A stretch of DNA of 59,107 bases from Scleroderma bovista (taxonomy: Eukaryota > Basidiomycota > Agaricomycetes > Boletales > Sclerodermataceae): assembly GCA_037178675.1 (NCBI GenBank), contig JAYMGJ010000101.1:1-59107 (forward strand), read 5' to 3'. Positions 11,641-59,107 of the stretch are shown here, piece by piece. The position numbers were made by a program, and so were the translations under genes. The notes under the pieces were generated by a model that worked only from the letters and a program-made list of their open reading frames with translations, made no database searches and was not told the origin of the DNA. The first letter of the stretch is position 1. Every line of letters starts with the position of its first letter.

Positions 11641-11789
11641 CCTCCCATGTTGAAAGCATGTCGGGTTTCAAAATGATTCCACACTTCTGTGGCTTCATTC
11701 TGGGTTGGATTTGATTGAGCTGTAGGTGGCCATGCGTGGCTAAGGACAAGGCTCGATAAACCTAAACAAGTTAGTTGATCAGCAACAAT

Positions 11790-13831
11790 GCAACAGGATT
11801 GACTTACGGCGGTGACAGAAAGAGCAAGCCCTACTCGTGCTGTAATGCTTTCACTATCTAACGTGGGGATCTGCACACTGCTGGCCACAAAGTTGAAGTG
11901 CGAGGCAAATCTCTGTAAAATAAATGGGTTTTGCCAAATCCCTGTCCATTCCTACAAAACATTAGATCAGATAGCGACAGTATCATACAACATACCCTGT
12001 AGTCGTCACCGTCATTGTGGTTGAATAAGAAACGGTTGCGGTGGAGCATGGCCCCTGCAAATTCTTCGCGCTCTTCCTTGCCGTGAAGCTTGGGGCTCTG
12101 GATGAAGAACATCGAAACGACCATCAATGCAGTCACCACAAAGCCACTTCGCCATTCATTTATGCGTTGTTTCACCTACAGTCCGAAGAATAGAATTGTT
12201 GGCAATGGCGTGACAATCAAGACATTAAGCTGACTTACCACATGATATACTGTGCCCTTCAGAGTGATCTCATGCTTGATTTTGTCGTGGTAAACCTCGT
12301 TCCAAATCAGTTGCATCACATTTTGGAATTCGGTTGACTCAATACTCCATGGGTCCACATAGCCCCCACACCAGTGCGCAAGTGTAGGTATGTAGACACC
12401 ACGCCAGGTGTTTCCGTCTTGGCATCCAGGTGGAAGGTGTTGGTTATTAAACTTACCGCTGAAACCTTTTCCTGAAAGAACTACTGCCCCATCTTGCTTC
12501 GTTTTAAGCCGTTTGGATGGGGGGGCACTGGTTGCCGGAAGAGTTTCCGCATTCGACTGCTGTTGTCAGAATCAATCACTCAAATTTATGTAGTATTAAT
12601 AACATACCTTGGAGAGAGAAGACTGTTTACTGCCTCTTGGTTGAGAGGGTTGGACATCCTGATGCCTGTGCTCACCACCCTTGTCGATTGCTTCATCATC
12701 TGGGCTGAACCATAATGATACCTCGCTTTTCAGAGGCCTCGCTGCTACTGAAGACCTCGCGGGAATACGTGGTTGGGAGGGTGGCGGTGGGGTGACAGAA
12801 GAGGATTGGGTGTCATCGAGATCGACGACTTCTACGGATACCTGTTCAACCGAGTCATACGAGACACTCCAGTATCAGTGATCAAGGAATAACTTACACC
12901 CCATTCTTTTATGGTCCCTTCCTGAGCAGGGTTGGTAAATTCTGTCGTATCGTCGTCTTCATTGAGGTAGGAAACAGGTTGATCTGGGCCAATGGCACTT
13001 GCAGGTGTGGCCAGTGGCTGGGTCGCAATGGAACAAGATGATCTGGTACTGCCCTTGACCTTGACCCCAAGGGACTTAGAGTGTGCAAACGAATTTGGTG
13101 CACTTGTAACACGGGAAGCGCTTGTTCGTGCGCTACCTGTACCACTTGTCACATTGTTCTGTGCCCAGTCCCTTACTCTGCCAAAGCCAGCAGCACCTTC
13201 TTTCGCAGAGCTAGATGCATCAAACAGATCCCAGTAAAAAAGGACAGTTTCCGTGAGTAACAGCATCTGAGATGATGAGTATAGATGGAAAAATAACTAA
13301 CGCCGTGCTATTCCCAGGGAATTGATGTGAAGAAGTCCGAGCAGCCTCAACAAGATCACATGTTGTCATCTTTTGGACACTCCGCTTCTTCGTTTTGACA
13401 GCCTTATCAGGGACTTCTTCAAGATCTTCCTCTCCGTCGTTTCTCCCCATGTTGTCCATGCCATCGCCCAGAGAAATTTGAGCGTCCAGCTCACTGGCAT
13501 CTAGAAAATGGCTCTGGTAAGTCCTATCGGCTAACCTATTTGCATCTGACTACATACTGTTTGTTGTACTAGGCTGCGCTTGGGCCGAGTGAGGCCTTGG
13601 GTGCCAACATTTTGTCAGTAAGTTTTTCTCTGCTTTGGTTTCACTGATAAGGGTATCAGCAACTCGTTTGATGGCACAAGCTTGGGCAGCATCCTGCTTG
13701 TTTTTTTCCTGCTCGATGCGAGCATCGTCCTGACACTTCTGCTCTGAGGTACGGTGCCTTTGCTTCATGTCCAGGACAATTCTTCCCGGATGCTGATTAG
13801 CGTTTTTGGCATGGGTGACAGGACGCAACAT
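11790..13831 (-). CDS. Plavaka-associated accessory protein (multi-exon, function unknown)
   Basis: This is a chain of minus-strand exons beginning at ATG 13831 (RPVTHAKNANQHPGRI, then a Lys/Glu/Gln-rich helical stretch EQEKNKQDAAQACAIKRV). Acidic and Ser/Thr-rich segments follow (EEDLEEVPDKAVKTKKRS; SGTGSARTSASRVTSAPNSF). Globular C-terminal exons contain FVVTALMVVSMFFIQSP, FNHNDGDDYR joined to EWTGIWQNPFILQRFASHF, and IPTLDSESITARVGLALS. Proteins with this layout are commonly encoded next to and divergently from fungal Plavaka transposases, as here (transposase start 13995). Exact exon limits are uncertain, and the gene may be inactive because its partner is truncated. Confidence 0.5.
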
Positions 13832-31509: not shown

Positions 31510-33944
<2,435 letters not shown>

Positions 33945-37608: not shown

Positions 37609-37621
37609 CTACTCCCCCCTC
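37609..37621 (-). other. Polypurine tract of gypsy B
   Basis: Minus-strand GAGGGGGGAGTAG directly precedes the 3' LTR and overlaps the pol stop codon (TGA, 37622-37620). Confidence 0.8.
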
Positions 37622-40600
37622 AGGTGCAGGATTCCAGACTGCAGAACTGAGCGTCGCAAACCGTGAGGTTTTCGGGGATACGACTAAATAACGAGTCAAA
37701 GTCCGTTTGGGCCATACGAAGTTTCCGAGGAGCAGAGGGGTTTTCTCGGTAAAAGCGCTCGACTTCCAGAGGAGAATTCTTCAAATTTGACGAGGGTTCC
37801 CATGTTCTCTCATGTTCCTCGTACCCTTTCCAGTGTACCAAATACTGGAGCTGCCTTTTATAAATACGAGAGGCTACGATATAGTCCACTTCGTACTCTT
37901 CATCGCGTTCTTCAGAGACATGTATCGGACCAGGCCGAGACACGGGTTGGCCGGGAAGAGGACCTAAATAAGGTTTAACCCGAGAGACATTCACAACCGG
38001 GTGAATTCGAAGAGTTTTCGGGAGCTTAAGCTCAACCGCATTCGGGGTTACTCTAGTGACCTCATAGGGACCAATCCACTTCTCCGTAAGCTTCTTAGAA
38101 GCACGATTTAGCATACGAAGGTTATCTGTAGAAAGCCAAACTTGTTGGCCTACAACATAGTCCGGGGCGGGATTTCTATGCTTATCCGCCTGAAGCTTCA
38201 TATTACGTTTTGCCTTCTCAGAAGACTCCACGACTTTATTAAATACGGCAGCAAAGTCCTTGGCCGCTGGGGCTACTGTGTCAACCGGCTCAACACCCAT
38301 ACGAGGGGAATAACTCCGGGTAATTCCAAACGGTGAATCAGTGGTCACCTCCGAAACCGTGTTGTTCCAAACGAACTGGGCAATCTTGATCCATTTGGCC
38401 CATTCGTTCTGACGATCGTTGACGTAGGTTCGGAGATACTGATTAATTTCGCGGTTCAACCGCTCCGTTTGACCATCAGTTTGAGGGTGAAATGCCGTGG
38501 ACATTTTCCTCTTAACGCCTAAAAGTCTATACAACTCCCCCAGGAAGTTGCTTGCAAAGACCGATCCGCGGTCTGACACAACGGAAGACGGGAGTCCATG
38601 CTGACACCAGACATGATCTCTAAATAACTCAGCGGTTGACAAGGCAGTTTCCTCCTTAGTGCAAGGTACAAACACAACCTCTTTGGAGAACCGATCAACC
38701 ACGACTAATATATAGTTGTAACCGAGGGATTCCGGCATTTCGGTAAAGTCCATAGTGACATAAAGCCACGGGCCGCTAGGGGTGGGGAGAGGGATAAGAC
38801 TTCCAGAAGTCTTTTGATTCGACACCTTGGACTGTTGACACTTTTGACAGTGCTTTACGTAGGTTTGAATCTGCTCTTTCATCCCTTTCCAGGAATAATG
38901 CTTCCTGAGCGCGTTATACGTAGCTTTTACTCCTTTATGACCAGCAACAGGAGTATCGTGAAAATTCGTAACGAGCGATTGTCGCTCTTCGTAAGACTGA
39001 CCAGTGACGTTGATTAGTTTAATAGATACTGGGTTCAACAGGACCTGGTCCTTGTTATCGTCGGAACTAGATACGTAATGGTCCGATCGCCTGCTAAGCG
39101 GATCTGCAACGTGCATCTGGGTTCCCTTCTTATAGATAAGCGAATAGTTAAACCGCGTCATCCACATCTGCCAGCGCGCTTGGCGCTTAGACAAGTTCTG
39201 TGACTTGGTGAAGTACGTTAAATTATGATGGTCCGTGTAGATCTCAAAGGCGTAAGGAGTGGCCTCGAGATAATGGCGCCAGGCCTCAGTCGCCTTTATG
39301 ATGGCCAGCATTTCTTTATCGTGAATAGGATAATTTCATTCTGGAGGTGTCATAGAATGTGACATGTACGCGACGGGTCTGAATTCGCCGTCTTCGCACT
39401 TCACGGATATCACTCCCCCGACGGCGAACTCAGACGCATCGGTTTCGAGGCGGAATTCGCGGTCCTGATCGGGGTACTGAAGTACCGGAGCACGAGTAAA
39501 GGCAGCTTTCAAAGCTTCAAACGCAGCGCGTTCCTTTTCTCCAAAGTTAAATACCGTGTCTTTACACGTAAGGTCCGTCATGGGTCTAGCCATGATCGCA
39601 TAATCTTTAATGAAACGTCTATAGAAATTACCGAGACCTAAGAACGCGCGAACCTGCTTTACGTTCGTTGGCTCAGGCCATTTCAAAATAGCATTAACTT
39701 TTTCAGGGTCCATTTTGATACCATCTCGTGACACGATCATACCGAGGAAGTCGACTTCGGTGACTCTGAAGCGACACTTCTCAGGTTTGACAAACAAGTC
39801 GTTATCACGTAATCGTTTCAAAACTTCCAGCACGATCTTATCATGCTTTTCCTGATCGTCCGTATCCGTAAATATCATAAGGTCGTCGATATACACCACG
39901 CAGACATCCGACATATCATGGAAGATTTCATTCATCATCTTCTGGAATGTTGCGGGTGAATTACAGAGACCGAAATACATAACTAATGGCTCGAAAGCCC
40001 CTTTATGCGTTACAAACGCAGCTTTCCACTCATCGCCTTCACGAATTCTCACATTGTTGTAACCCCACCGAAGGTCCATTTTCGTGAAGAGTTTACAACC
40101 CTTAAGCTTGTCAACAAGCTGAGAGATAAGCGGCAGCGGATAGTTATTTTTAATCGTCCAGTCGTTTACATAGCGGTAATCCTGTACCATGCGCTTCTTG
40201 CCGTCCTTTTTCGGGATAAAGAAGACCGGTGACGTCTGCTGACTAATAGACGGCCGAATGTATCCTTTAGCGAGTTGATCATCAAGGAACGATTCGACTT
40301 CTTTTTGTTCATCAACAGAGAGCGGGATAAGTCTTCCCTTTTTGGGCGGGAAGTCTTCTTTCAGATCAATTCCATGATCCCAAGGTTTTCTTAGCGGCAT
40401 GCGCTCTGACGACTTTTTACTAAATACGTCTAAGAATTCCCAGTACTCTTTAGGGACCTGCTTTTGAGCTTCCTCTAGGGTCGACTCATCGATAGTGACC
40501 TTTGATTCATGAGCTTTCAAAGCTTGTACCCAAGTTTCCTGAGACTCATTTTCTCGTAATAACTTAGCAAAGCGTGTCTCCAAAAGCGACTTGCACTCTG

Positions 40601-41398
40601 GAGGACACCTAGTTAAATTAACTTTGCCTGTTACCCAATCTATATCGGGGTTGTGCTTCTGAAGCCAGGTGTGGCCAAGGATAAGCGGCACTTTTCCAAG
40701 GCACGTGACGGCACACCACAGCTTTTCAGCATGTTTCCCAATACCGACTGTCAACAATACATAATGCGTGATGTCACCCTCCTGATTCCTAGTGCCATCT
40801 ACGTTAAGCACCGGGACTGGCTTCACCAGTTTAGATAACTGAAGTCGTCGATCAAGAGCCCAGCTCTTGTCAACAAAGCAGCCAGTAGCGCCACTGTCTA
40901 GCAGAGCGTCTACTTTAATAGTGTTAAGTGGTCCGCGGATGCAGACCGGTACCGTCACTTCACGTTCCATTGTGAAGGACCTTCGTAAGTCCACGAAAAC
41001 CTCTAAGTTGCCGGCGGGACTTTCCGGTTCCTTAGATGCCAAAGAAAGAGAAGAAATATTTTTATTCGATCGGGAATTAAGCACGCTCGATTTTACTTCC
41101 GGCGCCGAGCCCTTTGCAGGGACCCCCTTAGAAGGTGTAGTACAGTCCGAGTCACAGTCCATAGTATCAACTGACAAAACAGAAAAGCGAGAAGGAGAAA
41201 CCGAGACGGGAGAAACTACCGAAGACACTTTTTTGTGGGTTTTCGCTATTTTTGTACGTAGCAAAGCAATGCAGTATTTAAATATTTCCTGCACTGCAGG
41301 AGTAGTAGCGTAAGAGAGTCTATAGTCCAGAATTCGTACAGCTAAGTCCGATGAAGACTCGAGAGCGAGGATGCCCGTTTTATCCTCACTCTTTAGTC
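37620..41398 (-). CDS. Pol polyprotein of gypsy B, one in-frame TGA
   Basis: The pol frame is -1 relative to gag and open from the slippery site onward without an ATG, so it is probably made as Gag-Pol. Domains in order: aspartic protease (DALLDSGATGCFVDKS), RT ([20 protein letters not shown]; catalytic YIDDLMIF), RNase H (LETDASEFAVGGVIS), integrase with HH-CC zinc site (H..AGH; CQKCQQSK) and D,D,E motifs (MDFTEMP; VSDRGSVFASN; HPQTDGQTERLNRE), and a C-terminal chromodomain (YLVHWKGYEEHERTWEPSS) that in chromoviruses guides insertion to marked chromatin. A TGA at 39338-39336 lies between TPPE and NYPIH; element A has CGA there. Apart from this stop the frame is complete. Confidence 0.93.
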
Positions 41399-41405
41399 TT
41401 TTAAA
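41362..41405 (-). promoter_or_regulatory. Predicted -1 ribosomal frameshift signal, gag/pol of gypsy B
   Basis: The gag frame reads GAT TTA AAA GAC TAA. The heptamer T TTA AAA (41405-41399) fits X XXY YYZ. Six bases later comes an 11-bp hairpin: AGAGTGAGGAT (41392-41382), 9-nt loop, ATCCTCGCTCT (41372-41362), one G-U pair. Slipping back one base at AAA continues AGA CTA AAG AGT, which is exactly the pol frame. Confidence 0.75.
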
Positions 41406-42391
41406 TCCCTGAAGAACGCCTGCATTTCTGCAAATGTCATTCCTCTTACCGCATTTAGCCGGTCATCCTCCGGCTGGGCTTGCGTTGCCCGTGCTTGTGG
41501 TTGCCCACGACGAGGGCGGCGCGGCTTTGTGCACTCTCGTGCAATGTGGCCAAATAATTGGCAATTGTAGCATTGGGGCCCCTTACCCCTCTGCTGGTTC
41601 ACCTCAACGGCACCTATGTCCATTGGGACACCACTTCCCGATGCGGTTGAAGACGAATATGACTGGCCCTGGTAATACCGGGCAGAGCCTTGCCCTTGGA
41701 GATTGATGAGAAAGAGTTCCTGGGCTCTTCCCATCGCACGAGCAGAGTTTGCGAGTCGCTCGTAGGTATCTCGACGCATTCCCTGTATGTAGATTTGCTC
41801 CAGGAGCTTTCTCTGGAGCGCACGTTCGAGCAAGTCGCGGGCGTACTCATTCCCACAGTCTCCCTGGTTCTTGAGCGCCTCGAACTGTGCTAAGAAGTCA
41901 TCAATTCTTTGCCTCGGGCCCTGCCTAAGGCGGAGTAGTTGGGCACGTGCCCACTCGGCATTGTTTCCGGGGAGAAAGAACCTCTCTATCTCCTCCGCGA
42001 AGTCAACCCAAGCAGGCCAGGCCGGAGGGGGCGGGAGCTGTCCGGCTGGGACGGGCGGGGCGTTGGCGAGAGCCTGGGCTGCTGCCATGCAGCTATCCAG
42101 ACGGACTTGAGCCCACCGACCAGCTTTCGGGCCAGTGAGCCGGGAGAGAACTGCTGCGGTGACCTGGGCATCGTTTGCCCCCTCCATCGAGATCTGTAAC
42201 CAAACCTTGATCTTGGACCACCATTCGTGGAACTTCTGAGGGGAGCCATCGTAACTCCCGGGATCCGCGACCACCTTCTTGCGCGGCGGCGGTGGAGGGT
42301 GAGGCTGTGCAGCCGCAAGGGCTGCGATATGCGCCTGGAGGTCAATTTGCCCCTGGATAAGCTGTCCGAGGAGCTGGTTAAGGTCTGCCAT
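41393..42391 (-). CDS. Gag of gypsy B
   Basis: ATG 42391, 332 aa, stop TAA 41395-41393. N-terminus MADLNQLLGQLIQGQID, Pro-rich spacer, capsid-like part (SPQKFHEWWSKIKVWLQISM; EIERFFLPGNNAEWARAQLL; RALQRKLLEQIYIQGM), then a CCHC zinc knuckle CYNCQLFGHIARECTK in a basic context and a C-terminal EDDRLNAVRGMTFAEM. Gag forms the virus-like particle and binds element RNA. The frame is intact. Confidence 0.92.
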   Translation of the reverse strand: MADLNQLLGQLIQGQIDLQAHIAALAAAQPHPPPPPRKKVVADPGSYDGSPQKFHEWWSKIKVWLQISMEGANDAQVTAAVLSRLTGPKAGRWAQVRLDSCMAAAQALANAPPVPAGQLPPPPAWPAWVDFAEEIERFFLPGNNAEWARAQLLRLRQGPRQRIDDFLAQFEALKNQGDCGNEYARDLLERALQRKLLEQIYIQGMRRDTYERLANSARAMGRAQELFLINLQGQGSARYYQGQSYSSSTASGSGVPMDIGAVEVNQQRGKGPQCYNCQLFGHIARECTKPRRPRRGQPQARATQAQPEDDRLNAVRGMTFAEMQAFFRDLKD

Positions 42392-42397
42392 GAGGAC

Positions 42398-45408: not shown

Positions 45409-45831
45409 TAGTACTTTCTCCGGTTGTCCCTTGTCCGCTATTAGGCTGTTTACTTGTCACCGTATATACTCGTCCCTAGTTTGCACTTAGTATAAGTACT
45501 CTGTAGATTATCCTGTACTCCTCAGTCTGAAATCAACCATAGTCTCTACTCCTGATCTTGCCCGTCTCTGTCTCTATCTCCGTCTCCCCTTCTTGACCGG
45601 AACCTACGCAAGGGATCAACGCTCGTTGTCCTTAGTCGTTGAATCCAAGCGGTCACCAACTCCGGCCGGACTAATCTCTTGTCCAGCCCTCTGCTCTCCC
45701 CCTTCGTCCGCTTCTGTCCGGACTTGACCGGACCCCCTACCGGAGTAGACCCGGACTTGACAGTATTCCAGACTCACACTTGTGTGGGTTCACTGTTCCA
45801 TACCCTGTACGCAAACTAGCTTCTATTTCTT

Positions 45832-47280
45832 ATGACTATGACTACGCGCTCTCGTGCTCGTACCGCCGCAACACTTGCTGAAGAAGCAGGTGCAGTAGAC
45901 GACCTCCACCTCTCTGCTGCTCATCAAGCCCTGTCTAACCGCAGGCAACCTCCGGCTTCAGTTAGCCAATTCCGGAGCTTTACAGCTCGAAACCCTACAG
46001 CGCCTTTGACTCTGTGTCGAGATGCTGCGTCTCAGAGCCTTCATGGTTCTGCAGACTTAGGTCACCACGAATCCATTTCTGGTGATCAATTCCCTTACCG
46101 TCGCGACCCCACTCCGGAACGTCGCAAACCTGCCCGACACCAGTGGTTTGGCCCTGAGGACGGACCCAGAGGTGATCCGGACGACCCCGGAGATGGCGAC
46201 AACGATGATGATGATGACGATGACTTCGTCAACGCCATGGACGAGCTAGACCCTGGTCTAGCTGTTTTCCAAAACCTAGCAGTCGCCGTCAATCGCCTCT
46301 CCCGCTCCTCCCGCCAGACCAACGACTCCTCTTCCTCCCGTGCCAAAGTCCGCGAACCGGACACCTTTGATGGTATGGACCCCAAAAAGCTCAGGACCTT
46401 CTTGGTCCAGTGTGAGCTCTGCTTCCAGGATCGCGCCAAAGCGTTCCGCCTAGATAGGGCTAAGGTAACGTTCGCCCAGTCCTATCTCAAAGGTATGACG
46501 TTGGAGTGGTTCGAACTGGACCTCCTCCACTCCGGTGATCCGGCTGACCGCCCACTCTGGATGGACAGTTGGGTCCACTTTGTCGCTGAGCTCCAGAGTA
46601 CCTTTGGTCCTCACGACCCCATCGCTGATGCAGAGCATCAATTAGAGCACCTCCGGATGAAGGATGCTCACCGCGTCACGCGGTATATAGTTGACTTCAA
46701 CCGGCTTGCCTCGCAGGTCCAGGACTACGGGGATGGCGCGCTCCGCCGCCTATTCTACTCCGGTCTCCCGGACCGCCTAAAAGATGAGATAGCTCGAGTT
46801 GGGAAACCCCTGACTCTGCATGGGCTTAGGGCCCTTTGTCAAGAGATCGACGCGTGCTATTGGGAGCGCAAAGACGAGATCTCTCGTACGACGAAGACCC
46901 AATCCACCTCATCCCCAACCAAGTCCTCCAACTCCGGAGGCAACTCATCCAACTCTGGTCAGGAGAAATCCAAGACCGGTAACTCCCCCAGCTCCGCCAA
47001 CAACTCTGGCTCGTCCAAAACGACCAACAACCAGCCCTCCTCCGGTTCCAGACCGGACCTGACCAACAAGCTTGGTAAGGACGGGAAGCTGACCACAGAC
47101 GAGCGTAAACGGCGTCTGGACAACAACCTCTGCATGTTCTGCGGAGGGACCGGTCACTTTGCAGACAACTGTCCTAAGAAGACCAAAAAGGCCAAGGCTC
47201 GCGCTGCGGCCATCGCTGCTGAGTCCGGTAAGACGGACTCTACTAACTCGGGTGCCAACTCCGAGTCAAAAAAAGAGTAA
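45832..47280 (+). CDS. Gag of gypsy C
   Basis: ATG 45832, 482 aa, TAA 47278-47280. An acidic Asp run (GDNDDDDDDDFVNAMDEL) and Ser-rich linker precede the capsid core (VREPDTFDGMDPKKLRTFLV; FAQSYLKGMTLEWFELDLL; LFYSGLPDRLKDEIARVG). A Ser/Thr/Asn-rich spacer leads to the CCHC knuckle CMFCGGTGHFADNCPKK and a Lys/Ala-rich tail. The frame is intact. ATG 45838, two codons downstream, is an alternative start. Confidence 0.9.
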   Translation: MTMTTRSRARTAATLAEEAGAVDDLHLSAAHQALSNRRQPPASVSQFRSFTARNPTAPLTLCRDAASQSLHGSADLGHHESISGDQFPYRRDPTPERRKPARHQWFGPEDGPRGDPDDPGDGDNDDDDDDDFVNAMDELDPGLAVFQNLAVAVNRLSRSSRQTNDSSSSRAKVREPDTFDGMDPKKLRTFLVQCELCFQDRAKAFRLDRAKVTFAQSYLKGMTLEWFELDLLHSGDPADRPLWMDSWVHFVAELQSTFGPHDPIADAEHQLEHLRMKDAHRVTRYIVDFNRLASQVQDYGDGALRRLFYSGLPDRLKDEIARVGKPLTLHGLRALCQEIDACYWERKDEISRTTKTQSTSSPTKSSNSGGNSSNSGQEKSKTGNSPSSANNSGSSKTTNNQPSSGSRPDLTNKLGKDGKLTTDERKRRLDNNLCMFCGGTGHFADNCPKKTKKAKARAAAIAAESGKTDSTNSGANSESKKE

Positions 47281-47314
47281 GCAGCTCCCGGACCTCCGCA
47301 CAACCGGCGAGCTG
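47268..47314 (+). promoter_or_regulatory. Predicted -1 ribosomal frameshift signal, gag/pol of gypsy C
   Basis: The gag frame ends TCA AAA AAA GAG TAA. A AAA AAA (47268-47274) is a canonical slippery heptamer. After a 7-nt spacer, CAGCTCCCGG (47282-47291) can pair with CCGGCGAGCTG (47304-47314), 10 bp with one bulged C. The -1 frame continues AGA GTA AGC AGC without stops into the protease. Confidence 0.7.
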
Positions 47315-49690
47315 TGTTGACTCCGGAAGTGCACCCGAGGAGGCTCGCCTCAACGCGTCCGCTCTTTACGATCCTAATTCCCTTATGCCTCATGTTTTCC
47401 TTTTGTCTTACGATTTACCAGAACTCCATGCGCTTGTGGACTCCGGTTCCACGCACTGTTTTGTAGATACCCAATATGCTCTTGGACACTCTCTCTCCAC
47501 TTACTCTGTTCCTCCGATTGTTCTCCGACTCTTTGACAGTACCTCAAATTTTGTAATTACTCAAGCCGTCGACCTATCAGTGAAATTCCCCGCATCCGGT
47601 GATGTCACCCCTATGACTTTTTACCTCGCTCCGTTAGACTCTGAATGCATGATTGTCCTTGGACATAACTGGCTCACCCGCTACAATCCGTTGATTGATT
47701 GGGTACTGAGCAGTTTAACTTTCCGGACCCTTGCACAAAGTTTGCTAGCGCCCCCGTCGACTCCCTCTCCGGTCCTGTCCGGTAACCCTGTCTCCGGCCT
47801 CTCCAGCCAATCTGACCCCGGCCTTGCGCCATCTGTCGACACTCCGGTTTGCACCCCTCCACACATCTCTCTGATTAACGCAGCCGCATTCGTGCGTGCG
47901 TGCAAGTTAGAAGGATCCACCAAATACCAACTTCAGCTGCGTCCCTCTGACTCAGCGAAGGCTCGCTCTTCCTCTGCCTCTACTCCGCCGGACTTGGACA
48001 TTGTCCCTCCGGAGTATGCGGACGTGTTCAGCAAGGCGAAAGCCTCTGAACTGCCCCCGCATCGCGACTACGATCTGAAGATCGACCTTGAAGAAGGTAC
48101 CTCTCCTCCTTTGGGAACTCTCTACTCACTGTCTCCGGTTGAGCTCTCCGCCCTCCGGACCTTCATCGACAAGAATCTAAATACAGGTTTCATCCGTCCT
48201 ACCGCCTCCTCCCATGCTGCTCCGGTCCTCTTCGTAAAGAAGAAGGATGGCTCACTCCGCCTCTGCGTTGACTTCCAGGGCCTAAACAAAATTACAAAGA
48301 AGGATCGCTATCCACTCCCCCTAATCTCTGATCTTTTGGACTCACCCAGCCGTGCTAAAATCTATTTGAAGATCGACCTCCGGCACACGTACCATCTAGT
48401 CCGGATTGCTCCGGGCGATGAATGGAAGACCGCCTTCCGTACGCGCTATGGGTCCTACGAGTGGTTAGTAATGCCCTTTGGCCTCACTAACGCCCCTGCA
48501 GCCTTCCAGCACTTTGTCAACACCATCTTCGCTGACATGCTAGACGTCTGCGTCGTCGTGTACCTCGACGACATCCTAATCTACTCCGAGGATATGGAGT
48601 CCCACCAGCAGCACGTCCGGGAAGTTCTCCGCCGACTCCGGTTACATGGCCTCTTCGCCAAACCGGAGAAATGTGAGTTCCACTCGGACTCGGTAGAGTA
48701 CCTCGGCTATCGCCTCTCTCCGGACGGTTTGACTATGTCTCTGGACAAGATCCAAACCATCTCCAACTGGCCTGAACCTCGAAAGGTAAAGGACATCCAA
48801 TCCTTCTTGGGCTTTGCCAATTTCTACTGCCGGTTCATATTCAACTACTCTGACATTGTGGTTCCCCTCACCCGGCTCACACGGAAGGATGCTCCCTGGA
48901 ATTTCTCTGAGGACTGTTGACGTTCTTTCAATGCTCTCAAGCACGCCTTCACCACCGTGCCCATCCTCACTCACTTTATTCCGGACACCCCTATCATCGT
49001 GGAAACTGACGCCTCCGACTATGCTGTCGCTGGCATCTTGTCTATCACCTGCGCCGACGGAGAGATCCGTCCGGTTGCATACTACTCCCGGACCCTGACT
49101 GCTCCGGAGTTAAACTACGACACCCACGATAAGGAGTTGCTGGCTATCTTCGAAGCTTTCCGGAACTGGCGCCATTACCTTGAAGGTTCCGCCTCTCCAA
49201 TAGACGTCGTCACGGACCACAAAAACCTCGAGTACTTCTCCACCTCAAAAGTACTGTCCCGCCAGCAAGCCCGGTGGTCTGAATTTCTATCACAATTTAA
49301 TCTTGTCATTCGTTTCCGTCCCGGAAAACTCAGTGCCAAGCCGGACGCTCTCACTAGACGATGGGACGTCTACCCCAAAGAGGGGGATAGTGGCTACGCC
49401 CGGGTTAACCCCCAAAATCTTAGGCCGGTGTTCACTCAAGAACAGCTCTCTAATTCTCTTCACGCTACTTATCTAGAGTTTCCGGTCCTCCGTGCAGTCG
49501 CAATCATGGACGTTGAAACACTCCATAGCGACATCCTCTCTGCACTACCCTCTGATCCCATTGCCCAGGTCCACCTCGCAGATCCACTGGACTCTCGTTG
49601 GTCCACCGACGAGGCTGGATTCCTTCGACTAGACGGTCGTATATACATACCGGACTTGGATGACCTCCGTCTCCGGGAGTATTATGCACG
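47275..49690 (+). pseudogene. Pol of gypsy C, one TGA, truncated before integrase
   Basis: Open in the -1 frame from the slippery site. Protease (ALVDSGSTHCFVDTQYAL), RT (VKKKDGSLRLCVDFQGLNKI; FRTRYGSYEWLVMPFGLTNA; catalytic VVYLDDILIYSED), tether (FLGFANFYCRFIFNYSDI), RNase H (VETDASDYAVAGILS; LNYDTHDKELLAIFEAFRNW). A TGA at 48918-48920 interrupts an otherwise continuous frame between FSEDC and RSFNALKHAF. It ends at about 49690; the tail to 49754 is unrelated. Confidence 0.88.
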
Positions 49691-49754
49691 GTGGAAGATT
49701 TTAATCAGAGTGACAGGACGAAATTTGAAGGTGGACGTTCACTTGGGCGAGTGA

Positions 49755-50282
49755 GCTTGCGATTTCATGAGGGGCTTTGCAACACTCAATGATGAGTGTC
49801 ACATGATCTAAGTCTTAGATCATCGCGCGAAAAGGTTATTTAACTTTCTCAGTCAAGGTAGGCACTAGAGTCCGAGGAATGTATTCATAATGCTTCGTCT
49901 CGTGTCTGCCCTATCTTACCCTACCAATTTGCCTTGGTCTTCGCATCTAGACTTGTAGTGCCACCAGTCGTTGGAATGTATCGAGGCTGTTCCTTGATTA
50001 GCAGCGAGCGGACAACTCGACTGCACCTTGTCTTGCCCGCAGTGCTCAGCACTCAGCACTCAGGCCCAGTCGTCGCCGCATGAAGCGTATCAGCGTGTTT
50101 CGCTCACGATATCGCACTTTGCACACTTGCACCCATGTATGCCTCACCCACCTCACGATTGTCTGCCCCCCCTGTGCGCCAGGCATGACCTCACTCTTGT
50201 ATAGATAACTCACTGCGCCACCCACTCGCTTCCCATTCCGCCCCAGCACCATCCCCTAATTATCTATTCCCTTCCTTCAGCC
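49755..50282. other. Intergenic, probable promoter region of the next gene
   Basis: No gene seen. The stretch before 50283 is C-rich and pyrimidine-biased (CATCCCCTAATTATC...CCTTCCTTCAGCC), as is common before fungal start codons. Confidence 0.4.
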
Positions 50283-53062
50283 ATGGCCACTACCCCCCCG
50301 AAAAAGTCGACCTTTTGCTCACGCGTCGGGACGGGGTGATGCGACGCTCCTCGACTGCATTCAGCATCCCCAGTTCTACCTGGCCGCGCAGGCTCAGCAA
50401 CTCCCCCGCCCCCCGACTCCGATACCGCATCCACCACACACTCTATTTATCCACCCACACTCGAGCGCAAGGACTCCAGTTCATCCTTCACCAAACTACA
50501 GACCACAGCTCAACCCGCTGTATCGACGCCCAGCCCTATTCCTGAATCGCCCATTTGCGAGGCTGCAGCCTTACCTCCTGACCCTGCACCTGGTCTCCCG
50601 AAAGGGTCGTCCCCACTTTCCGGAGAGGTCATCTCTGCTGAAGGTACAGAGTCAGCTCGCGGTCCTACTCCAGCACCATCTGTACCTGAAGAAGTCCCCG
50701 CACCTCCCCCTGCCCTGCCCATTCCAACTCTCGTCGTCAACGATCCTACAGACGGTGCCCCGTCAGTCTTCACTGACGAGCCCGAGGAACTGCCAGTACC
50801 AGATACCCAGCCAGCACCCGCTTCTGAAGCAACACCCGTTCCTGCACCAGCCTCTGCGCCCGCATCCAAACCATCCACTCCACCAGCACGTGTCTCCGCA
50901 CCACCCTCCGCGCCAACCACACCTCCCGCGCAGCAACCCCCTGCGTTATCCCAATTCTGATACTTTGACATCCACCACGCCTCGTCTGCTGCATCCGCTA
51001 CTAGCCCCGCAGTCCCACCGAGACCGGTGAGAATTGTCCGGGCAGGACACGCATTTTCCCGTGAAGCCACTGCGTCTTCTGAAAGTCAAAATGCACCCAT
51101 ACAGGAATGCATAGTGTTCCAGAAACAGTCCTTTGGGTCCTCCATTTGTAGGCCCGGGTCATCGTCATCGTATGGTGCACCCATCGCACCGGCTGCGTTG
51201 CAGAGCAGGAAAGCGAGTCGTAGTTCGTTCCAGCCACGCGAGCAGGAACTGCCCGGGAGTACTTATACCTGGAGCAATTCCAGCCTTACTGGGTTCCATC
51301 AGGGTGCCCCTGCTGGGTAGGTTTCCTGCACTTACTGTTTGCGATTGGAGTATGAAACTGAAGGGTGATTAGTATCCAGGATGACCCATTTGCCGATTCC
51401 AAGCGTGCACCAGCCCAACCAGCTGTGCCAGAGCAGGCTGCTGCGGCCCTCTCACCCGCTGAGACAATCCATGTACCAGAGTAAGCCCCGTCGTGTGCGT
51501 ATGTCTCTGCGCGTTTCTTACCGAGCTTGCAGGCCATTCGACCCACGTTCACCAAGAGACGACACGATGATGCCAGTAGCTGAACAAGTAACAATCCCAT
51601 TTCGCCCATTCCACGAAGTCATTCCAATCCGGTCAGTCACTAATGTCCTCTGGGGATGGTCTGGTAGTTAACGCACCCACAGACCCTCACGCCAAACTTC
51701 CGGATACAGCCTTGCCGATCGTAGGGACTACCTTAGCAAGGCAGAGTACGCACTTCCCCGAAATTCTACCCCACTTTTCCTGACATCCCTTTTTCAGCGA
51801 ACGCCGTCCCCTCGTATCCCGTCCGTCGACGCCACCCATCGATACCTCCTTCCGCTCCTCCAACCCCCCTGACCCAACCCACTCCCCGGTGGGCACAACC
51901 ACCCCAATTCGATGTCAACGGAATCGCAAGGAACTACAGCTACGGCTCAGTCGCGACGCCCTACGCCGAACGCGGATGGTTCGAGTACATACTTCCCCAC
52001 GGACTCAGATACTTTGGCAACCCGCGTAAAAGCGCCACCACCGACCTCGATCTGCGAAACTTTTCCAAACTCGACCAGGTCACGAGTGCGATTGATACGG
52101 TGGACAGCGTACCGGAGGGATGCGAAATATGGGTTAGGCCGAGCTACAGCGCGACGGGATGGAGGAGACAGAAGACGCCCGGACGGCTTGTCATTTATTG
52201 GGTGGACCATCGGTACCGTCGCATTCTGAACGAGATGCCTTCCGATGATCTACCTCTATCTGGAGAAGACGATAGCGCGTTCTCGTACCTAATACTTCGT
52301 TGATTCGGGGGTGTTCATGTTTTTTACAGGGCTCGATGACGAGTTCAGATACTGGTCCTATGTCGAGATGCACCCTGCTCATGTCGTTCTTACACGCCCG
52401 TCGACCCAGGAGGTCGCTGATGCTCTTCATTGGTCGTATACCGATCGGCTCCTTTCGCATCCCCAGCCCATCCAGCCTCCGTTTAGCCAGGAGGAATGTC
52501 AGGAACTCATCAGACTACTCAACGGTGCGGCCACGGTGCCATTCATGTTTTTGAAAGTCATACTCATCTCCTAACCATTTAGTCGGCCATCATCCTCAGT
52601 GCCTCGGTGACGCTCATGACCCTGCCAGAATTGGACAGTATAGCCCGGATTGGAGGTTTGGTCGCCATCTTATGCTCTGTGCTGAGCATGATCACATCTT
52701 TCGTATCTATTTTCCGGTATAAATCAGAAATGGCACAGGGTGGCGCACAAACCGCTGGAGAAGGGTTTGTTCTGCTTCCTGTAAGCGTCATCCTTGTTGA
52801 GCCCTTTTGCCAGTCACTGATACGGGTCTTTCAGCGCCGAAGCATCATGCTTTCGCTTCCGCTTGTGTTCCTTGCGTATTCTGTCGCTGGATTCATCACG
52901 GGCGTTGTCATATACTCGTTTAGGAGTGCTACCATCAACTTTGCTCATGCAGGAATGCCTGTCGCTGCCAAGTTTGATGAGTATGCGCGGTGGATGGTGA
53001 TTGGTGTTCTTGGAGCTCTGACGGGGGTGTTGATCGCTTCTGTAATGGTGTCGAGGAGGTAA
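50283..53062 (+). CDS. Proline-rich, WW-like, multi-pass membrane protein (possibly damaged)
   Basis: ATG 50283 opens a frame (MATTPPKKSTF) that continues through a Pro/Ala/Ser-rich disordered region to about 51010, but holds TGA at 50337-50339 and 50958-50960. Later exons include DPFADSKRAPAQPAVPEQAA (about 51390-51480), a segment from about 51840 with PPQFDVNGIARNYSYGS, a WW-like GWFEYILPHGLRYFGNP, then WVRPSYSATGWRRQKTPG and IYWVDHRYRRIL. After further introns comes EFRYWSYVEMHPAHVVLTRP, and three hydrophobic segments (GGLVAILCSVLSMITSFV; SLPLVFLAYSVAGFITGVVI; MVIGVLGALTGVLIASVMV) end at TAA 53060-53062. This plan resembles a large Agaricomycete family of WW-like membrane proteins with unknown role. 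One donor near 52270 would have to be GC. Confidence 0.55.
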
Positions 53063-53442
53063 TTAAGTGATCTGTGTATCTGTAGGTTCGTGATATATCC
53101 TTCCGTCCTCATGACAACTTTATCATAGTCCGAATCGTCATTCATCACCAACTGCCATCTCTTCGTACCATCGGAGGCCTCGTAAACTTATTTCAGGCTT
53201 GTCTAGTTGCCGAACACAACACGGGATTTGAATTTCTATGTATGCGACCAGGTTCCTCAGCGGAACTGGTTGAAAGCTTTGCGATGGCTGGAGCTCAGAC
53301 TTCTAAGGCACTGTGTCTAAGTTTGCGGTAGGTTTTGCATATTATACGGTGATAATAACGGTCTTTTTCGACAACTAGTATGTTAGCATAACGCACTGCT
53401 TCTCATAAGTACACACGCGGATGCGTCTGCAAATCAGTTGCA

Positions 53443-53681
53443 CCTAGCTGCTGTGTTTCTGTCCTTGACATAGGTACCAGATATCGGATACGTGTCTTGC
53501 ACAATAATTGCATGGCGAGAATAAAATATTGCAGTGGCTCGACTAGCGCCCATGGCCCCAGATGGTATGAGCGAGGCGATGCACTGATACCTCGTGTCAT
53601 CCGTGCGACGCTTGCAAGTCTCAGCCTTGTGCCCTAACCACCACCTACCTCTACTCGACACTCCACTTTTTCGCGATCACC
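53443..53681 (+). promoter_or_regulatory. Promoter region of the GTPase gene
   Basis: Conserved in the detached copy at 3543-3767. 53063-53442 to its left shows no gene. Confidence 0.5.
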
Positions 53682-56600
53682 ATGGCTCTTCGACCCACTG
53701 AGAGGCTTCAGCCTCGCTCAAGTTCCAATGCGAGTAAGTTTAGGCTCAATATCATGCATGCGATAGTAGTGATCGAACACTCTCTAGGTATTAAAACAGC
53801 ACTTCATACGGATCCTGTCGACCAGAGGGCTTGTACTAGCACCGTTGAAACTGGATTTTGCACCGATGCCACCAAGAATGTCCCACGCGACTCTGCGGGA
53901 AATATCCCTCGCATGGACCCTGCGATCGCCAGAAAGCACTTCGATCGCATTGGCCGTTTTAGAGTCCTTGTCATCGGCAGATCCAATGCTGGTAAAACGA
54001 CACTCTTACAGCGCATTTGTAACACCACCGAGCTCCCGGAGGTCTTCAATTCCGATGGAGATGAGGTATGGGTATATCGTCTCACATTATAATTTATCAT
54101 TCATTACGTCAACTTTCTGAAACACTCCAATTCCCAGATTGATCCTAAGGTGGTGCAGGGATCTCTGGAGGTGAGTTCATGACCTGCCCGTCACACGAAG
54201 TCATTTACTGTCCTCAGAGAGGAGAACATAGCATTGAAAATGAATTGATTTTTCGGAGCAATACACGCTTCATCTTTCACGACTCCAGAGGATTTGAGGC
54301 AGGTTCCGAGGAGGAGGTGAAGGTGATGAAGAAATTTCTCATGGACCGTGCAGCCACAACGAAATTAGAAAAGCGAATCCATGCAATATGGTAAGATCAT
54401 ACTATCACTGAGAGATAACTGATCCCAAGTGGGGCAGGTATTGTATTCCATTGACCGATTCTGAAAGGCCAATTGTGGCTGCAGAAGAGCTCTTCTTCAA
54501 TGAGTGTAACACAGGAAATGGTGAGATAGTCTGTCATTGTAATAGCACAGGGTTCTGAGAATACAGGGGATAGTTCCTGTGATTGTAGTGTTGACAAAGG
54601 CTGATGCCATGGAGTTACAGGCAGTTGGGCAGCTCAGAGATGAAGGGTTGACAATGAAAGAAGCAAGGTCACAGGCAGGGGAATTAGTCAAACAGTTGCT
54701 GATAGAGGTGAAGAAACAGGTTGAAGACCAGTTGGCAGAGTGCAAGCACCATCCTAATGACTGTTTGGCACTATTTGGGGGGTATCAATTCATTTAGGTG
54801 TAGCCTTGTGCTGACTTCTCTTATTTGTGCAGGTATGAATAAAGCCAATGCAGATTGTGACCCACTTCTAAGGTGCACAGTTAATGCACTGGATGATATG
54901 GAAGTGCAGCAGCTTCTGATATCAGCACAACAAGTCAATTTCAACCTGAACATTGAATATGCTGTCAAGTAAGGAGGTTACTTTCCTGTGGCTGCTACAT
55001 AATGGAGCTGTGATCATTTGTAGATACATTATGAAGAAAGCAGATGGTCCATTTGACAAAAACACACTGGAATTGGGGATTCTGGATTGGATGCCATATC
55101 TAGAGGTATTGTCACCATTGGTACTGCTTGTCATATTAATGGAGATATGGATATGTTTATAGGTGATTGGTTGTCTGGTGAATACAATGGAAGACAGCTA
55201 ATCATAAAATGGTACATGGATTACTATTGTGGCCTGTTGCCTTGACAGAGAGTGAGTGATTTCATGGCAGGTCCAGCTGGGTGTCTTCTCACTGTCTTCA
55301 CCCCCACTCTGGTCCTGTTGCCTTGACAGGAAGTGAGTGATTTCATGGCAGGTCCAGCTGGGTGTCTTCTCACTGTCTTCACCCCCACTCTGGTCCTGTT
55401 GCCTTGACAGTGGGTGAGTGATTTCATGACAGGTCCAGCTGGGTGTCTTCTCACTGTCTTCACACCCACTCTGGTCCTGTTGCCTTGACAGGAAGTGAGT
55501 GATTTCATGGCAGGTCCAGCTGGGTGTCTTCTCACTGTCTTCACCCTCACTCTGGTCCTGTTGCCTTGACAGAAAGTGAGTGATTTCATGGCAGGTCCAG
55601 CTGGGTGTCTTCTCACTGTCTTCACCCCCACTCTGGTCCTGTTGCCTTGACAGAAAGTGAGTGATTTCATGGCAGGTCCAGCTGGGTGTCTTCTCACTGT
55701 CTTCACCCCCACTCTGGTCCTGTTGCCTTGACAGTGGGTGAGTGATTTCATGACAGGTCCAGCTGGGTGTCTTCTCACTGTCTTCACCCCCACTCTGGTC
55801 CTGTTGCCTTGACAGTCTGTGAGTGATTTCATGGCAGGTCCAGCTGGGTGTCTTCTCACTGTCTTCACCCCCACTCTGGTCCTGTTGCCTTGACAGAAAG
55901 TGAGTGATTTCATGGCAGGTCCAGCTGGGTGTCTTCTCACTGTCTTCACACCCACTCTGGTCCTGTTGCCTTGACAGTCTGTGAGTGATTTCATGGCAGG
56001 TCCAGCTGGGTGTCTTCTCACTGTCTTCACCCCCACTCTGGTCCTGTTGCCTTGACAGTGGGTGAGTGATTTCATGACAGGTCCAGCTGGGTGTCTTCTC
56101 ACTGTCTTCACACCCACTCTGGTCCTGTTGCCTTGACAGTCTGTGAGTGATTTCATGGCAGGTCCAGCTGGGTGTCTTCTCACTGTCTTCACCCCCACTC
56201 TGGTCCTGTTGCCTTGACAGTGTGTGAGTGATTTCATGACAGGTCCAGCTGGGTGTCTTCTCACTGTCTTCACACCCACTCTGGTCCTGTTGCCTTGACA
56301 GTCTGTGAGTGATTTCATGGCAGGTCCAGCTGGGTGTCTTCTCACTGTCTTCACCCTCACTCTGGTCCTGTTGCCTTGACAGTCTGTGAGTGATTTCATG
56401 GCAGGTCCAGCTGGGTGTCTTCTCACTGTCTTCACCCCCACTCTGGTCCTGTTGCCTTGACAGTGGGTGAGTGATTTCATGGCAGGTCCAGCTGGGTGGC
56501 TTCTCACTGTCTTCACCCCCACTCTGGTCCTGTTGCCTTGACAGTTGGTGAGTGATTTCATGGCAGGTCCAGCTGGGTGTCTTCTCACTGTCTTCACACC

Positions 56601-58826
56601 CACTCTGGTCCTGTTGCCTTGACAGTCTGTCTTCACCCCCACTCTGGTCCTGTTGCCTTGACAGCAAGTGAGTGATTTCATGGCAGGTCCAGCTGGGTGT
56701 CTTCTCACTGTCTTCACCCCCACTCTGGTCCTGTTGCCTTGACAGCAAGTGAGTGATTTCATGGCAGGTCCAGCTGGGTGTCTTCTCACTGTCTTCACCC
56801 CCACTCTGGTCCTGTTGCCTTGACAGTCTGTGAGTGATTTCATGGCAGGTCCAGCTGGGTGTCTTCTCACTGTCTTCACCCCCACTCTGGTCCTGTTGCC
56901 TTGACAGTGGGTGAGTGATTTCATGGCAGGTCCAGCTGGGTGTCTTCTCACTGTCTTCACCCCCACTCTGGTCCTGTTGCCTTGACAGAAAGTGAGTGAT
57001 TTCATGGCAGGTCCAGCTGGGTGTCTTCTCACTGTCTTCACCCCCACTCTGGTCCTGTTGCCTTGACAGTCTGTGAGTGATTTCATGGCAGGTCCAGCTG
57101 GGTGTCTTCTCACTGTCTTCACCCCCACTCTGGTCCTGTTGCCTTGACAGCAAGTGAGTGATTTCATGGCAGGTCCAGCTGGGTGTCTTCTCACTGTCTT
57201 CACCCCCACTCTGGTCCTGTTGCCTTGACAGCTTGTGAGTGATTTCATGGCAGGTCCAGCTGGGTGTCTTCTCATTGTCTTCACCCCCACTCTGGTCCTG
57301 TTGCCTTGACAGGAAGTGAGTGATTTCATGGCAGGTCCAGCTGGGTGTCTTCTCACTGTCTTCACCCCCACTCTGGTCCTGTTGCCTTGACAGCTTGGTG
57401 AGTGATTTCATGGCAGGTCCAGCTGGGTGTCTTCTCACTGTCTTCACCCCCACTCTGGTCATGTTGTCTTGACAGAAAGTGAGTGATTTTATGCCATTTG
57501 CAGCTGTGTGTGTTCTCATCATTGTTACCCTCACTCTGGTCCTGTTGCCTTCACAGAGAGTGGGTGATTTCATGTCAGGTCCAGCTGGGTGTTTTCTCAT
57601 GATCTGCACTACCACTTTGTTCCTCTTACCTTCCAGGAAGTGAGTAGCTTCCTCTTGCGTCAGTTGAGTACTTTTTGATTGTCTATCACTCCCACTCTGG
57701 TCCTGTTATCCTGATAGTGTGTGAGTAATTCTTTACTACATCTAGCTGAGTGTCTTCTCACTACCCTTAACCTCACTCTGGTATTGTCATATTTATAGCT
57801 GGTAAGTGATTTCACCTCAAATCTGGCTGGATATGATTCCTCATTGGCCCACTGTCTTTACTATCATCCATTTTCTTGATAGAGTGTGAGTGACTTAATA
57901 TAAGGTCTAGCTTTGTATTTTCTCACTGTTATTATTCCCACCATGATTTTGGTGTGTCAATAGAAAGTGAGTGATGTCATGTATATATTATTGCACTATC
58001 ATACCAATGTCTTGCCTTTCCATTTCTTCAGCAAGTCAGTCAATTTCCATCATTAGCCTTTTATGGCCATTATTGTGCACTTTTCTCACATTACTTCTTT
58101 AGGATGTTAGTTATTTCTATACCTTCTTCTCACTGCTTATCCTTTACATATTTTACATTTTCTAGGCAGTAAGTTATCATTTTCTCATTCACTAATATGT
58201 TTCCATGTGTTCCTTTAGAATCTGGTATGTTTTTGTTTTCTGTCCATCATATCTCCATCATATCTCCCACATAGCATGTCAGTCAATTTTTCATGAGTTT
58301 ATCCTTAGCTTATGGTTGTCATTGCAACAAAGAGAATACTTTTCATTGATGATTTTGAACTACCTATTTTGTGCCCATCTCACATGAAGTCTTCTGTGCA
58401 GCAGTGCATAATGCATGGTGCTGGTGAGCCACATCCAGTCCTTGTTTATAATTTCTAAATTTGTCAAAGCATGTATCCTCATCTTTGAGTACTCCTACTT
58501 CTATTTACAAGCAAAAGCAGATCAAAAGGACATCATTGCACTTGCAGTCAAGGAATACCAAGAGTCTAGGATTCAAAGTACTATTGTTGTGGCCCTTCAA
58601 CACACTATCCAGGAATATAATAAAGATCATATCAAATTACAGCAGGCCATTTTTGATATCATTTTGGAAAACCGCATGTGTAAGTTTGTATTATTTATAA
58701 ACACACAAAACCTTGAATCAAGTTTTGTCTCAGCAAACAAATTCAATTTGGCACAGCAGCCAGAAAATCAGGCTTGATCCAACCAGTTTTTTTTTGTTGA
58801 TAGGTAAGCTTCTGCCCATGCTATGA
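53682..58826 (+). CDS. P-loop GTPase with a long C-terminal intron/microexon array
   Basis: Exons: 53682-53733, 53788-54065, 54138-54170, 54218-54390, 54438-54520 (or to about 54529), 54567-54779, 54833-54968, 55024-55105, 55163-55177, then about 40 microexons, 58402-58423, 58521-58679 and 58804-58826. GTPase motifs: G1 VLVIGRSNAGKTTLLQRI, G3 FHDSRGFEAG, an IWYCIPLTD strand, G4 VVLTKADAME. It belongs to the G-domain proteins abundant in Agaricomycetes; the role is unknown. The last large exon encodes a helical tail (LAVKEYQESRIQSTIVVALQ). Two joins need care: 54520/54567 and the G6 run at 54777-54782 each leave the frame off by one with the best GT-AG sites. The G domain is certain; the path through the array is inferred. 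Confidence 0.7.
55178..58401 (+). repeat. Tandem array of intron-like units separated by 3-nt segments
   Basis: Twenty-eight units (55249-57397) repeat with an 81-bp period: triplet, GTGAGTGATTTCATGGCAGG, body with CTTCTCACTG, end CCTTGACAG. Unit 18 (56626) is shortened by 42 bp. Twelve further units (57476-58277) diverge and vary from 50 to 84 bp but keep AG-NNN-GT. Triplet starts: 55249 AGA, 55330 GAA, 55411 TGG, 55492 GAA, 55573 AAA, 55654 AAA, 55735 TGG, 55816 TCT, 55897 AAA, 55978 TCT, 56059 TGG, 56140 TCT, 56221 TGT, 56302 TCT, 56383 TCT, 56464 TGG, 56545 TTG, 56626 TCT, 56665 CAA, 56746 CAA, 56827 TCT, 56908 TGG, 56989 AAA, 57070 TCT, 57151 CAA, 57232 CTT, 57313 GAA, 57394 CTTG, 57476 AAA, 57557 AGA, 57637 GAA, 57718 TGT, 57799 CTG, 57883 AGT, 57964 AAA, 58032 CAA, 58103 GAT, 58166 GCA, 58219 AATCTG, 58275 CAT. 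Confidence 0.92.
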
Positions 58827-59107
58827 TTCCAAATTGAATGTATATTCTATGTCCTAATCTGTTGATATACCAATGGTATGGCAAAAAATGATGCTGCTGT
58901 GGCTGCAACAACAAACTTTGATGTGGACCTTGACTAATCATGCTTACCTCAGTGTACTGTCATCAACTGCTGTTGCTGTAGTTTTTTCTTCTTGTTGTTG
59001 TTTTTAGTAATCAATGTCATTTACTGCTGAAGCTGTTTGATCCTGCTGCATACCAACTAGCCTGGCACAAACTTGAAACACAATTACTCTAGGCCTTCAC
59101 AGATATG
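58827..59107. other. No gene supported
   Basis: AT-rich sequence after the proposed GTPase stop (TGA 58824-58826), with CTGCTG/TTGTTG-rich stretches. It may be 3' UTR, or more of the same gene if the stop is spliced around. Confidence 0.4.

Follow-up and report, generated by a model that had tools for sequence, protein, structure and literature searches.

The window analysed here is a stretch of 59,107 nucleotides (nt), positions 1 to 59,107 of contig JAYMGJ010000101.1 from the basidiomycete Scleroderma bovista. On its plus strand lies a GTPase gene in which the exons for the GTPase domain are followed by a row of 40 units, each made of an intron-like spacer and a block that is nearly always a single triplet. 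In our judgement, it is highly probable that this row is spliced, and that its approximately 40 one-codon exons write a hypervariable arm, predicted to be helical, between the GTPase domain and a C-terminal segment that is conserved. We favour this reading because the triplets contain no stops and stand in phase 0, the splice dinucleotides are kept, NAG codons are avoided and the zone ahead of the acceptors is poor in AG. In addition, 24 loci show this design, their introns differing in sequence and length, and a transcript-like homologous protein, P0009, bears such an arm.

The array occupies positions 55178–58277 of the plus strand, and its units run from AGA (55249–55251) to CAT (58275–58277). 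A strict scan, requiring YAG, a short exon and a donor, finds 39 units between positions 55249 and 58277. The 40th, TCT (56626–56628), was read from the sequence; it precedes a truncated intron of 36 nt, which opens with GTCTTC and lacks the 5′ half, at a spacing of 120, and this microexon is probably skipped. The total agrees with the 40 units counted in an earlier note on this DNA, as do the two exceptions it named: 38 of the 40 units are 3 nt long, and the others are CTTG (57394–57397), a 4-nt unit that would shift the frame if included, and AATCTG (58219–58224), a two-codon exon. A 6-nt exon near the array end is also present in 12 fetched loci, as AATCTG, AATTTG, AACTTG, GCATTA, AAATTG or ACCTTG. 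The homogeneous part of the array (55249–57476) has an 81-nt period with 78-nt introns, and among its 24 units of exactly 81 nt the p-distance is 0.012 for the introns and 0.68 for the triplets. The intron of this part has a GTGAGT donor, a CTCAC-type branch candidate, an AG-poor 3′ zone and a CAG acceptor. Toward the 3′ end the introns diverge, with lengths of 50–81 nt, and the codons of this diverged part (57552–58277) are largely common to related copies, the last 12 units being shared with the locus L014. The pattern YAG-N3-donor occurs 37 times in 55178–58401, as compared to twice on the plus strand and never on the minus strand of positions 1–53600, and to a mean of 0.33 (maximum 2) in 200 first-order Markov resamples of the array.

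The design is not limited to this gene. The unit junction ACAGNNNGTGAGTGATTTCATG has 778 exact matches in the host genome (51.8 Mb in 850 contigs) and its reversed control has none; the matches listed (the first 100 of the 778) form clusters at six GTPase loci. A protein search with the pre-array exons gave 51 match rows at 45 distinct places in the genome. Arrays of at least eight units were found in 24 of 28 loci, namely the window and 23 of the 27 fetched loci (designated by L); the earlier note described one gene, which belongs to a gene family. The four fetched loci without a chain are L024, in which the GTPase match is present and the scan finds no chain, L033, a weak match cut by the contig end, and the extension pieces L034 and L035. 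The codon set used below comes from 26 chains of 14–71 units in 24 loci, with 957 microexons and 975 codons; chains of fewer than eight units were left out, an irregularly spaced chain in L027 (5786–6325) was removed by hand, and the 957 microexons include a few artefacts of the scan, for example two GTCCAG within L015 introns. Across all array spans, there are 1138 donor-like sites, and the nearest upstream YAG lies 3 nt away from 937 of them and 6 nt away from 14; any other distance accounts for five sites at most, and for 153 sites the 40 nt upstream contain no YAG. The array introns measure about 50–95 nt over the family. Most loci have 78-nt introns, L029 and L030 have 57-nt introns of a different sequence, in L031 and L032 the introns of the longer chains most often measure 64 nt, and the introns of L025 and L028 are irregular. 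The second array type, in L029 and L030, has a 60-nt period, and its regular part consists mostly of NNT codons (GCT, CTT, GAT, CAT, TAT and CGT) that would give alanine-rich arms. The closest named homologs of the family belong to Scleroderma yunnanense, S. citrinum and Pisolithus.

Do the triplets behave as codons? The array triplets of the window are in phase 0, the phase in which the exons downstream are open as well. None of the 975 codons is TAA, TAG or TGA, although the unit-finding scan does not exclude them, whereas 92.7 stops are expected from the position-wise base frequencies and 1000 permutations within chains gave a mean of 107 and a minimum of 82. As a reference we used the ordinary exons of the family, comprising 40 matches to the C-terminal exon and 65 of 70 upstream exons (five with in-frame stops were left out). 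Among the lysine, glutamate and glutamine codons, the ratio of NAG to NAA is 13:267 in the microexons and 454:436 in the ordinary exons. This avoidance is expected of a spliced exon, because NAG would add a competing acceptor directly ahead of the donor. The ratio of NNC to NNT is 0:412 in the 3-nt microexons as compared to 1003:1591 in the ordinary exons, possibly through methylation-driven loss of CpG, as a final C would precede the G of the donor. The encoded residues are mainly hydrophilic, plus tryptophan and tyrosine (Q 12.9%, E 12.2%, R 9.8%, A 9.4%, Y 7.0%, W 6.8%, P 0.7%, T 0.6% and I 0.5%); tryptophan makes up only 0.2% of the ordinary exons and isoleucine 8.5%.

The spacers, in turn, are conserved in the manner of introns. 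When the sites are set in L028 and followed into L025, GT is kept at 38/38 and AG at 38/38, while only 708 of 1081 positions of the intron bodies are kept; among the codons of the same comparison, positions 2 and 3 are each kept at 21/21 and position 1 at 17/21. In the reverse direction, GT is kept at 46/48 and AG at 44/48 (90/96 together), with 900/1435 for the bodies. From L032 to L031, 40/40 splice dinucleotide positions are kept with 454/609 in the bodies, and from L031 to L032 the values are 60/68 and 754/1128. Against each of L009, L012, L015 and L019, the window array keeps GT at 20/20 and AG at 22/22 in its diverged 3′ part, with body identities of 0.82–0.90 (490/597 for L015). Moreover, the last 25 nt of the 476 distinct introns are almost free of AG, and 429 of these introns have a CTNAY motif between −60 and −12. 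The GT...AG borders of the diverged arrays thus appear to be under selection, as expected of spliceosomal introns.

A view of the spliced product is probably provided by P0009, a protein of 453 residues from a 2346-nt contig with the source code “lgn”, which we take to denote assemblies of public sequencing runs. P0009 is identical to the product of the window gene at 276 of 346 aligned residues. It very likely derives from spliced RNA, because it aligns intron-free across all seven tested intron positions (7/7). After LDWMPYLQ come 77 residues, among which K, S, E, L and W predominate, and then SVSDFMAGPAGCPLLSSLPLWSCCLD...; this latter stretch resembles a translated array intron, with 26 residues that are 85% identical to positions 3803–3880 of L015 (E = 5e-12 against the fetched loci). 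In the simplest reading, dozens of array introns would have been spliced out of this transcript and one retained. When 120 listed homologs were scored for arm-like composition, with W of the ordinary exons and M of the microexons set by hand, P0074 ranked first and P0009 second; both carry the “lgn” code, and in both the best-scoring segment lies just after the GTPase. Pfam finds MMR_HSR1 in P0009 with 28.4 bits (cut-off 21.9), the Pisolithus protein P0039 stays under the cut-off at 19.8, and neither NACHT nor WD40 is among the 13 Pfam matches of P0009 with E values up to 1. AlphaFold2 predicts long helices over the P0009 arm (residues 344–381 and 384–431; predicted local distance difference test values of 68–85 by block). 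The best Foldseek matches are the dynamin-like proteins BDLP and mitofusin 2, but with query template-modelling scores of only 0.26–0.32, at which the GTPase family is not securely named.

How do such similar introns come to flank such different codons? Among 26 units of L013, the p-distance is 0.001 for the introns and 0.67 for the triplets, and the codons differ in 267 of the 300 unit pairs with identical introns. In 20 of the 26 chains, units of equal length were numerous enough to be paired; 2742 pairs there have identical introns, and 1925 of them have different codons. We compared six pairs of gene copies with 95–99.6% identical DNA (L009/L019 was left out). In three of them the order of the middle codons is no better than shuffled: the longest common subsequence (LCS) is 8 against a shuffled mean of 7.7 for the window and L014, 9 against 9.0 for L029/L030, and 9 against 8.1 for L013/L018. 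Their ends are shared, namely the first unit and the last 12 in the window and L014, the first 23 and the last 9 in L029/L030, and only the last 2 in L013/L018. The match between the window and L014 reaches past the gene (49826–59012), and the two may be dikaryon alleles or a segmental copy. Along the intron (70 polymorphic columns), linkage to the preceding codon has mean z values of 6.4, 4.5, 3.3, 1.4 and 1.3, and linkage to the following codon 4.5, 2.9, 2.0, 2.4 and 4.6; the decay fits recombination that breaks within introns. Block duplications are visible as well, such as the REAE repeats in L017. We infer concerted evolution of the introns, with the codons retained and reshuffled.

Several observations weigh against our interpretation. 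The evidence on the splicing of the window copy itself consists of DNA sequence, and P0009 backs the design rather than this copy. The window array contains the 4-nt unit and the truncated intron, and exon 6 has lost the GT of its donor in the window copy and its five close relatives; splicing of the window copy may be poor, or the copy may be broken in part. Elsewhere, a few units measure 1, 2 or 4 nt. The P0009 arm terminates in the retained intron and matches no array among the loci analysed, and a search with this arm returned P0009 as the single match. The third listed “lgn” protein, P0102, has an odd segment at the array place, and its composition score is not arm-like. A search with the C-terminal part showed no arm in the 31 inspected of 120 matches, which were limited to about 76–241 residues, and neither the arm search nor the C-terminal search found a transcript joining the arm to the C-terminal exons. 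Annotated models in which the GTPase is joined straight to the C-terminus exist in S. citrinum (P0125) and Pisolithus (P0039 and P0060); existing gene models may lack the arm exons. Some codon order is kept in L016/L017 (LCS 29, shuffled maximum 28) and slightly in L023/L026 (LCS 14; shuffled mean 11.4, maximum 15), and all 16 codons of L021 are in common with L022. Linkage to the following codon is also high at the intron start (z 4.5), which probably reflects block duplication. Finally, the units are copies of each other, so the p-values for codon bias and introns are inexact and exaggerate the significance, and the unit order in long arrays hinges on correct assembly.

The rival that survives best accepts that the microexons are spliced, and regards the array as the by-product of a self-multiplying intron in a tolerant linker, with neither selection for diversity nor a role in recognition. 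Tandem growth is indeed evident in the L017 block duplications, one intron type recurs in many loci, and the function of the arm is a proposal only. However, at an intron difference of 0.1%, as in L013, neutral growth predicts mostly equal codons, yet nearly nine-tenths of the identical-intron pairs there (267/300) differ. Moreover, the residue composition lies far from that of ordinary exons, for instance in tryptophan and isoleucine (W 6.8 versus 0.2%, I 0.5 versus 8.5%), and 57-nt introns of another sequence bear the same design. We regard this explanation as possible but clearly the less likely one.

Much less probable is the alternative that the earlier note had set beside its chain of one-codon exons, in which the whole row (55178 to ~58332) is removed as one large intron that contains decaying intron copies, a minisatellite with noncoding triplets. 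Skipping of the whole array would keep the frame, the armless models P0125, P0039 and P0060 agree with it (but P0063 has an extra segment at that place), and the window copy is known as genomic DNA. Noncoding triplets, however, would not be stop-free (0/975), nor would they avoid NAG and NNC. GT and AG are kept (76/76 and 90/96) while the intron bodies diverge, and the transcript-like P0009 bears the arm. An intron of 3 kb is, in addition, unusual for a fungus. We reject the large intron on account of the missing stops, the codon bias and the splice-site conservation, despite the armless gene models, and favour the chain that the earlier note had put forward. P0063 has only a weak arm-composition score for its odd segment; it and P0060, both from Pisolithus microcarpus, are apparently one gene annotated twice, differing by the segment at the array place.

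Least credible of all, and rejected here, is a tandem-repeat protein encoded by the minus strand, in which each repeat of 27 residues would have a single hypervariable one (open reading frame 55198–57705, 835 residues): this frame is open over 81–99% of six arrays (window, L009, L013, L018, L020 and L026) with the variable triplet in frame, as follows from the 81-nt period and the near-identity of the units, but in diverged arrays it is broken, the longest open frame covering just 12–24% of the span in L010, L011, L015, L022, L025, L028, L031 and L032, and these eight loci keep the same triplet design; moreover, the lengths of 227 of the 839 introns are not divisible by three, and conservation tracks the splice sites.

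The window GTPase gene spans 53682–58800 on the plus strand, and nine exons code for the G domain before the array. Exon 1 (53682–53733) carries the ATG start in an in-frame model, with a GT donor next to it. In the same model, exon 2 (53788–54065) contains the P-loop GRSNAGKT, corresponding to Pfam MMR_HSR1 in the homolog P0009. Exons 3 (54138–54170) and 4 (54218–54390) include HDSRGFE, and are followed by exon 5 (54438–54520), exon 6 (54574–54777; TKAD), exon 7 (54833–54968), exon 8 (55024–55105), which terminates with ...LDWMPYLE in phase 0, and exon 9 (55163–55177; VIGCL), also in phase 0, with the donor GTGAAT. The acceptor of exon 6 placed at 54574 clears one of the two stops in the gene model. 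The 3′ end of this exon is uncertain, since the place of the homologous donor reads GGGG, without GT, in the window, L012, L014 and L015; it reads GAGG in L009 and L019, and GT in the four more distant loci L013, L016, L018 and L020. Accordingly, the window protein was read across this border with the phase of the GT-bearing relatives.

On the 3′ side of the array, the first ordinary exon, RILFIDDFELPILCPSHMKSSVQQCIMHGA, extends over 58333–58423 with an alternative start at 58309, and a similar exon was matched in 18 fetched loci. The conserved C-terminal exon, CILIFEYSYFYLQ...ILENRM (CILIFEY...ILENRM), lies at 58470–58679 and has matches outside the window in 22 fetched loci, the one in L021 being at chance level only. 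These positions replace the starts of 58402 and 58521 that had been given before for the exon after the array and for the helical exon. The last exon (58757–58800) ends with the stop TGA at 58798–58800. The C-terminal exon contains a stop in L012 and L032, and some family members may be broken.

The window contains other reading frames as well. Next to the GTPase gene are gag-pol frames, named by eye, that resemble long terminal repeat retrotransposons (37620–42397, minus strand, and 45820–49754, plus strand). Similar blocks with WD40-like and acidic-protein frames, suggestive of a duplication, are present at 4.1–7 kb and 33–36 kb. A reading frame at 32325–32849 has the P-loop motif GQAGRGKS, and is presumably part of a NACHT-type gene. 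The minus-strand frames at 10369–11951 resemble a Pif1-type helicase, of the kind that we associate with Helitron elements.

How could one-codon exons be spliced and diversified? We propose that each of the near-identical introns would be recognised by intron definition, which at fungal intron sizes needs no long exons. With only 3 nt between them, two splice sites cannot be in use simultaneously. Since this is the spacing between neighbouring introns, the introns would be removed one after another, and every step would append one codon to the upstream exon. Because nearly all of the exons are whole codons in phase 0, the skipping, gain or relocation of a unit would leave the frame unchanged. 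Unequal crossing over and gene conversion would, moreover, find their homology in the identical introns, and such recombination would homogenise the introns and shift the codons among places. Selection would maintain the diversity of the codons and exclude both stops and sequences that compete as splice sites. The outcome would be a family in which the GTPase and the C-terminus are mostly common to the members and the middle of the arm is not, each member having a private arm. We infer the splicing of the window copy, the order of the splicing steps and the selection for diversity in this scheme, and by analogy to the HNWD genes of Podospora the arm may serve in the recognition of self, of a partner or of a parasite.

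A bolder and only tentative extension is a codon-cassette system, a GTPase repertoire in which each intron-flanked cassette would store one amino acid of the recognition arm, as a fungal counterpart of immune or allorecognition systems. Recombination between the identical introns would then deal new arms in every lineage. A dedicated step might perhaps exchange or rewrite the codon alone, and optional skipping would multiply the arms.

The open-access literature search met no gene in which one-codon exons form a tandem chain, and the earlier note likewise named no described gene of this architecture. The elements are each known, while the intron as the repeat unit with a one-codon payload is, as far as the literature search shows, a new design. 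The MEG genes of Schistosoma mansoni encode secreted proteins with 10–20 short exons, mostly of 15 bp and at minimum 3 or 6 bp, and introns of 0.1–5 kb (PMC10526429). They share with the arrays many tiny exons, mostly multiples of three, across a family, and are thought to yield protein variation; however, their introns are long as compared to the ~50–95 nt found here, and the cited sections describe no one-codon tandem array with near-identical short introns (PMC10526429). The bicycle genes of aphids, putative effectors that evolve rapidly, have many small exons, with more than 100 microexons in one gene, but they are not GTPases, and single-codon tandem units do not appear in the cited description (PMC9168663). 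Fungal CYP621A, with an isolated single-nucleotide exon in a conserved motif, indicates in the sections cited that the fungal spliceosome can join ultra-small exons, although this is a single exon with neither array nor variability (PMC12940212).

With respect to the introns themselves, introners are likewise near-identical and present in many copies per genome, but in the cited accounts they spread into many genes (PMC9860276, PMC4457414), whereas the array copies seen here are in tandem, at one place and in one family. Stwintrons, as the cited parts describe them, are fungal introns that are also taken out in consecutive steps, but one is nested in a splice site of the other (PMC8469720, PMC12403724), while here 3 nt separate consecutive introns at 937/1138 sites. 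A parallel in the way of working is offered by the HNWD genes het-e, het-d and het-r of Podospora, in which, according to the portions cited, hypervariable tandem repeats set the specificity and undergo concerted evolution with frequent rearrangement (PMC2873952). Both systems have tandem repeats within an NTPase gene; in HNWD, a STAND NTPase is combined with WD repeats (PMC2873952), in contrast to the MMR_HSR1-type GTPase with an intron repeat and a one-codon payload.

If the arrays are spliced as we propose, a eukaryote can build a protein segment of tens of residues from exons of one codon each, dozens of them in succession, at no fewer than 24 loci of a single genome. This would test the limits of the spliceosome, with splice sites 3 nt apart over and over, and the gene models in Scleroderma and Pisolithus would probably be incomplete at the arm. 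Recombination could alter the protein by single residues without putting the frame at risk, and the diversification of fungal recognition genes would become directly testable outside the NLR families.

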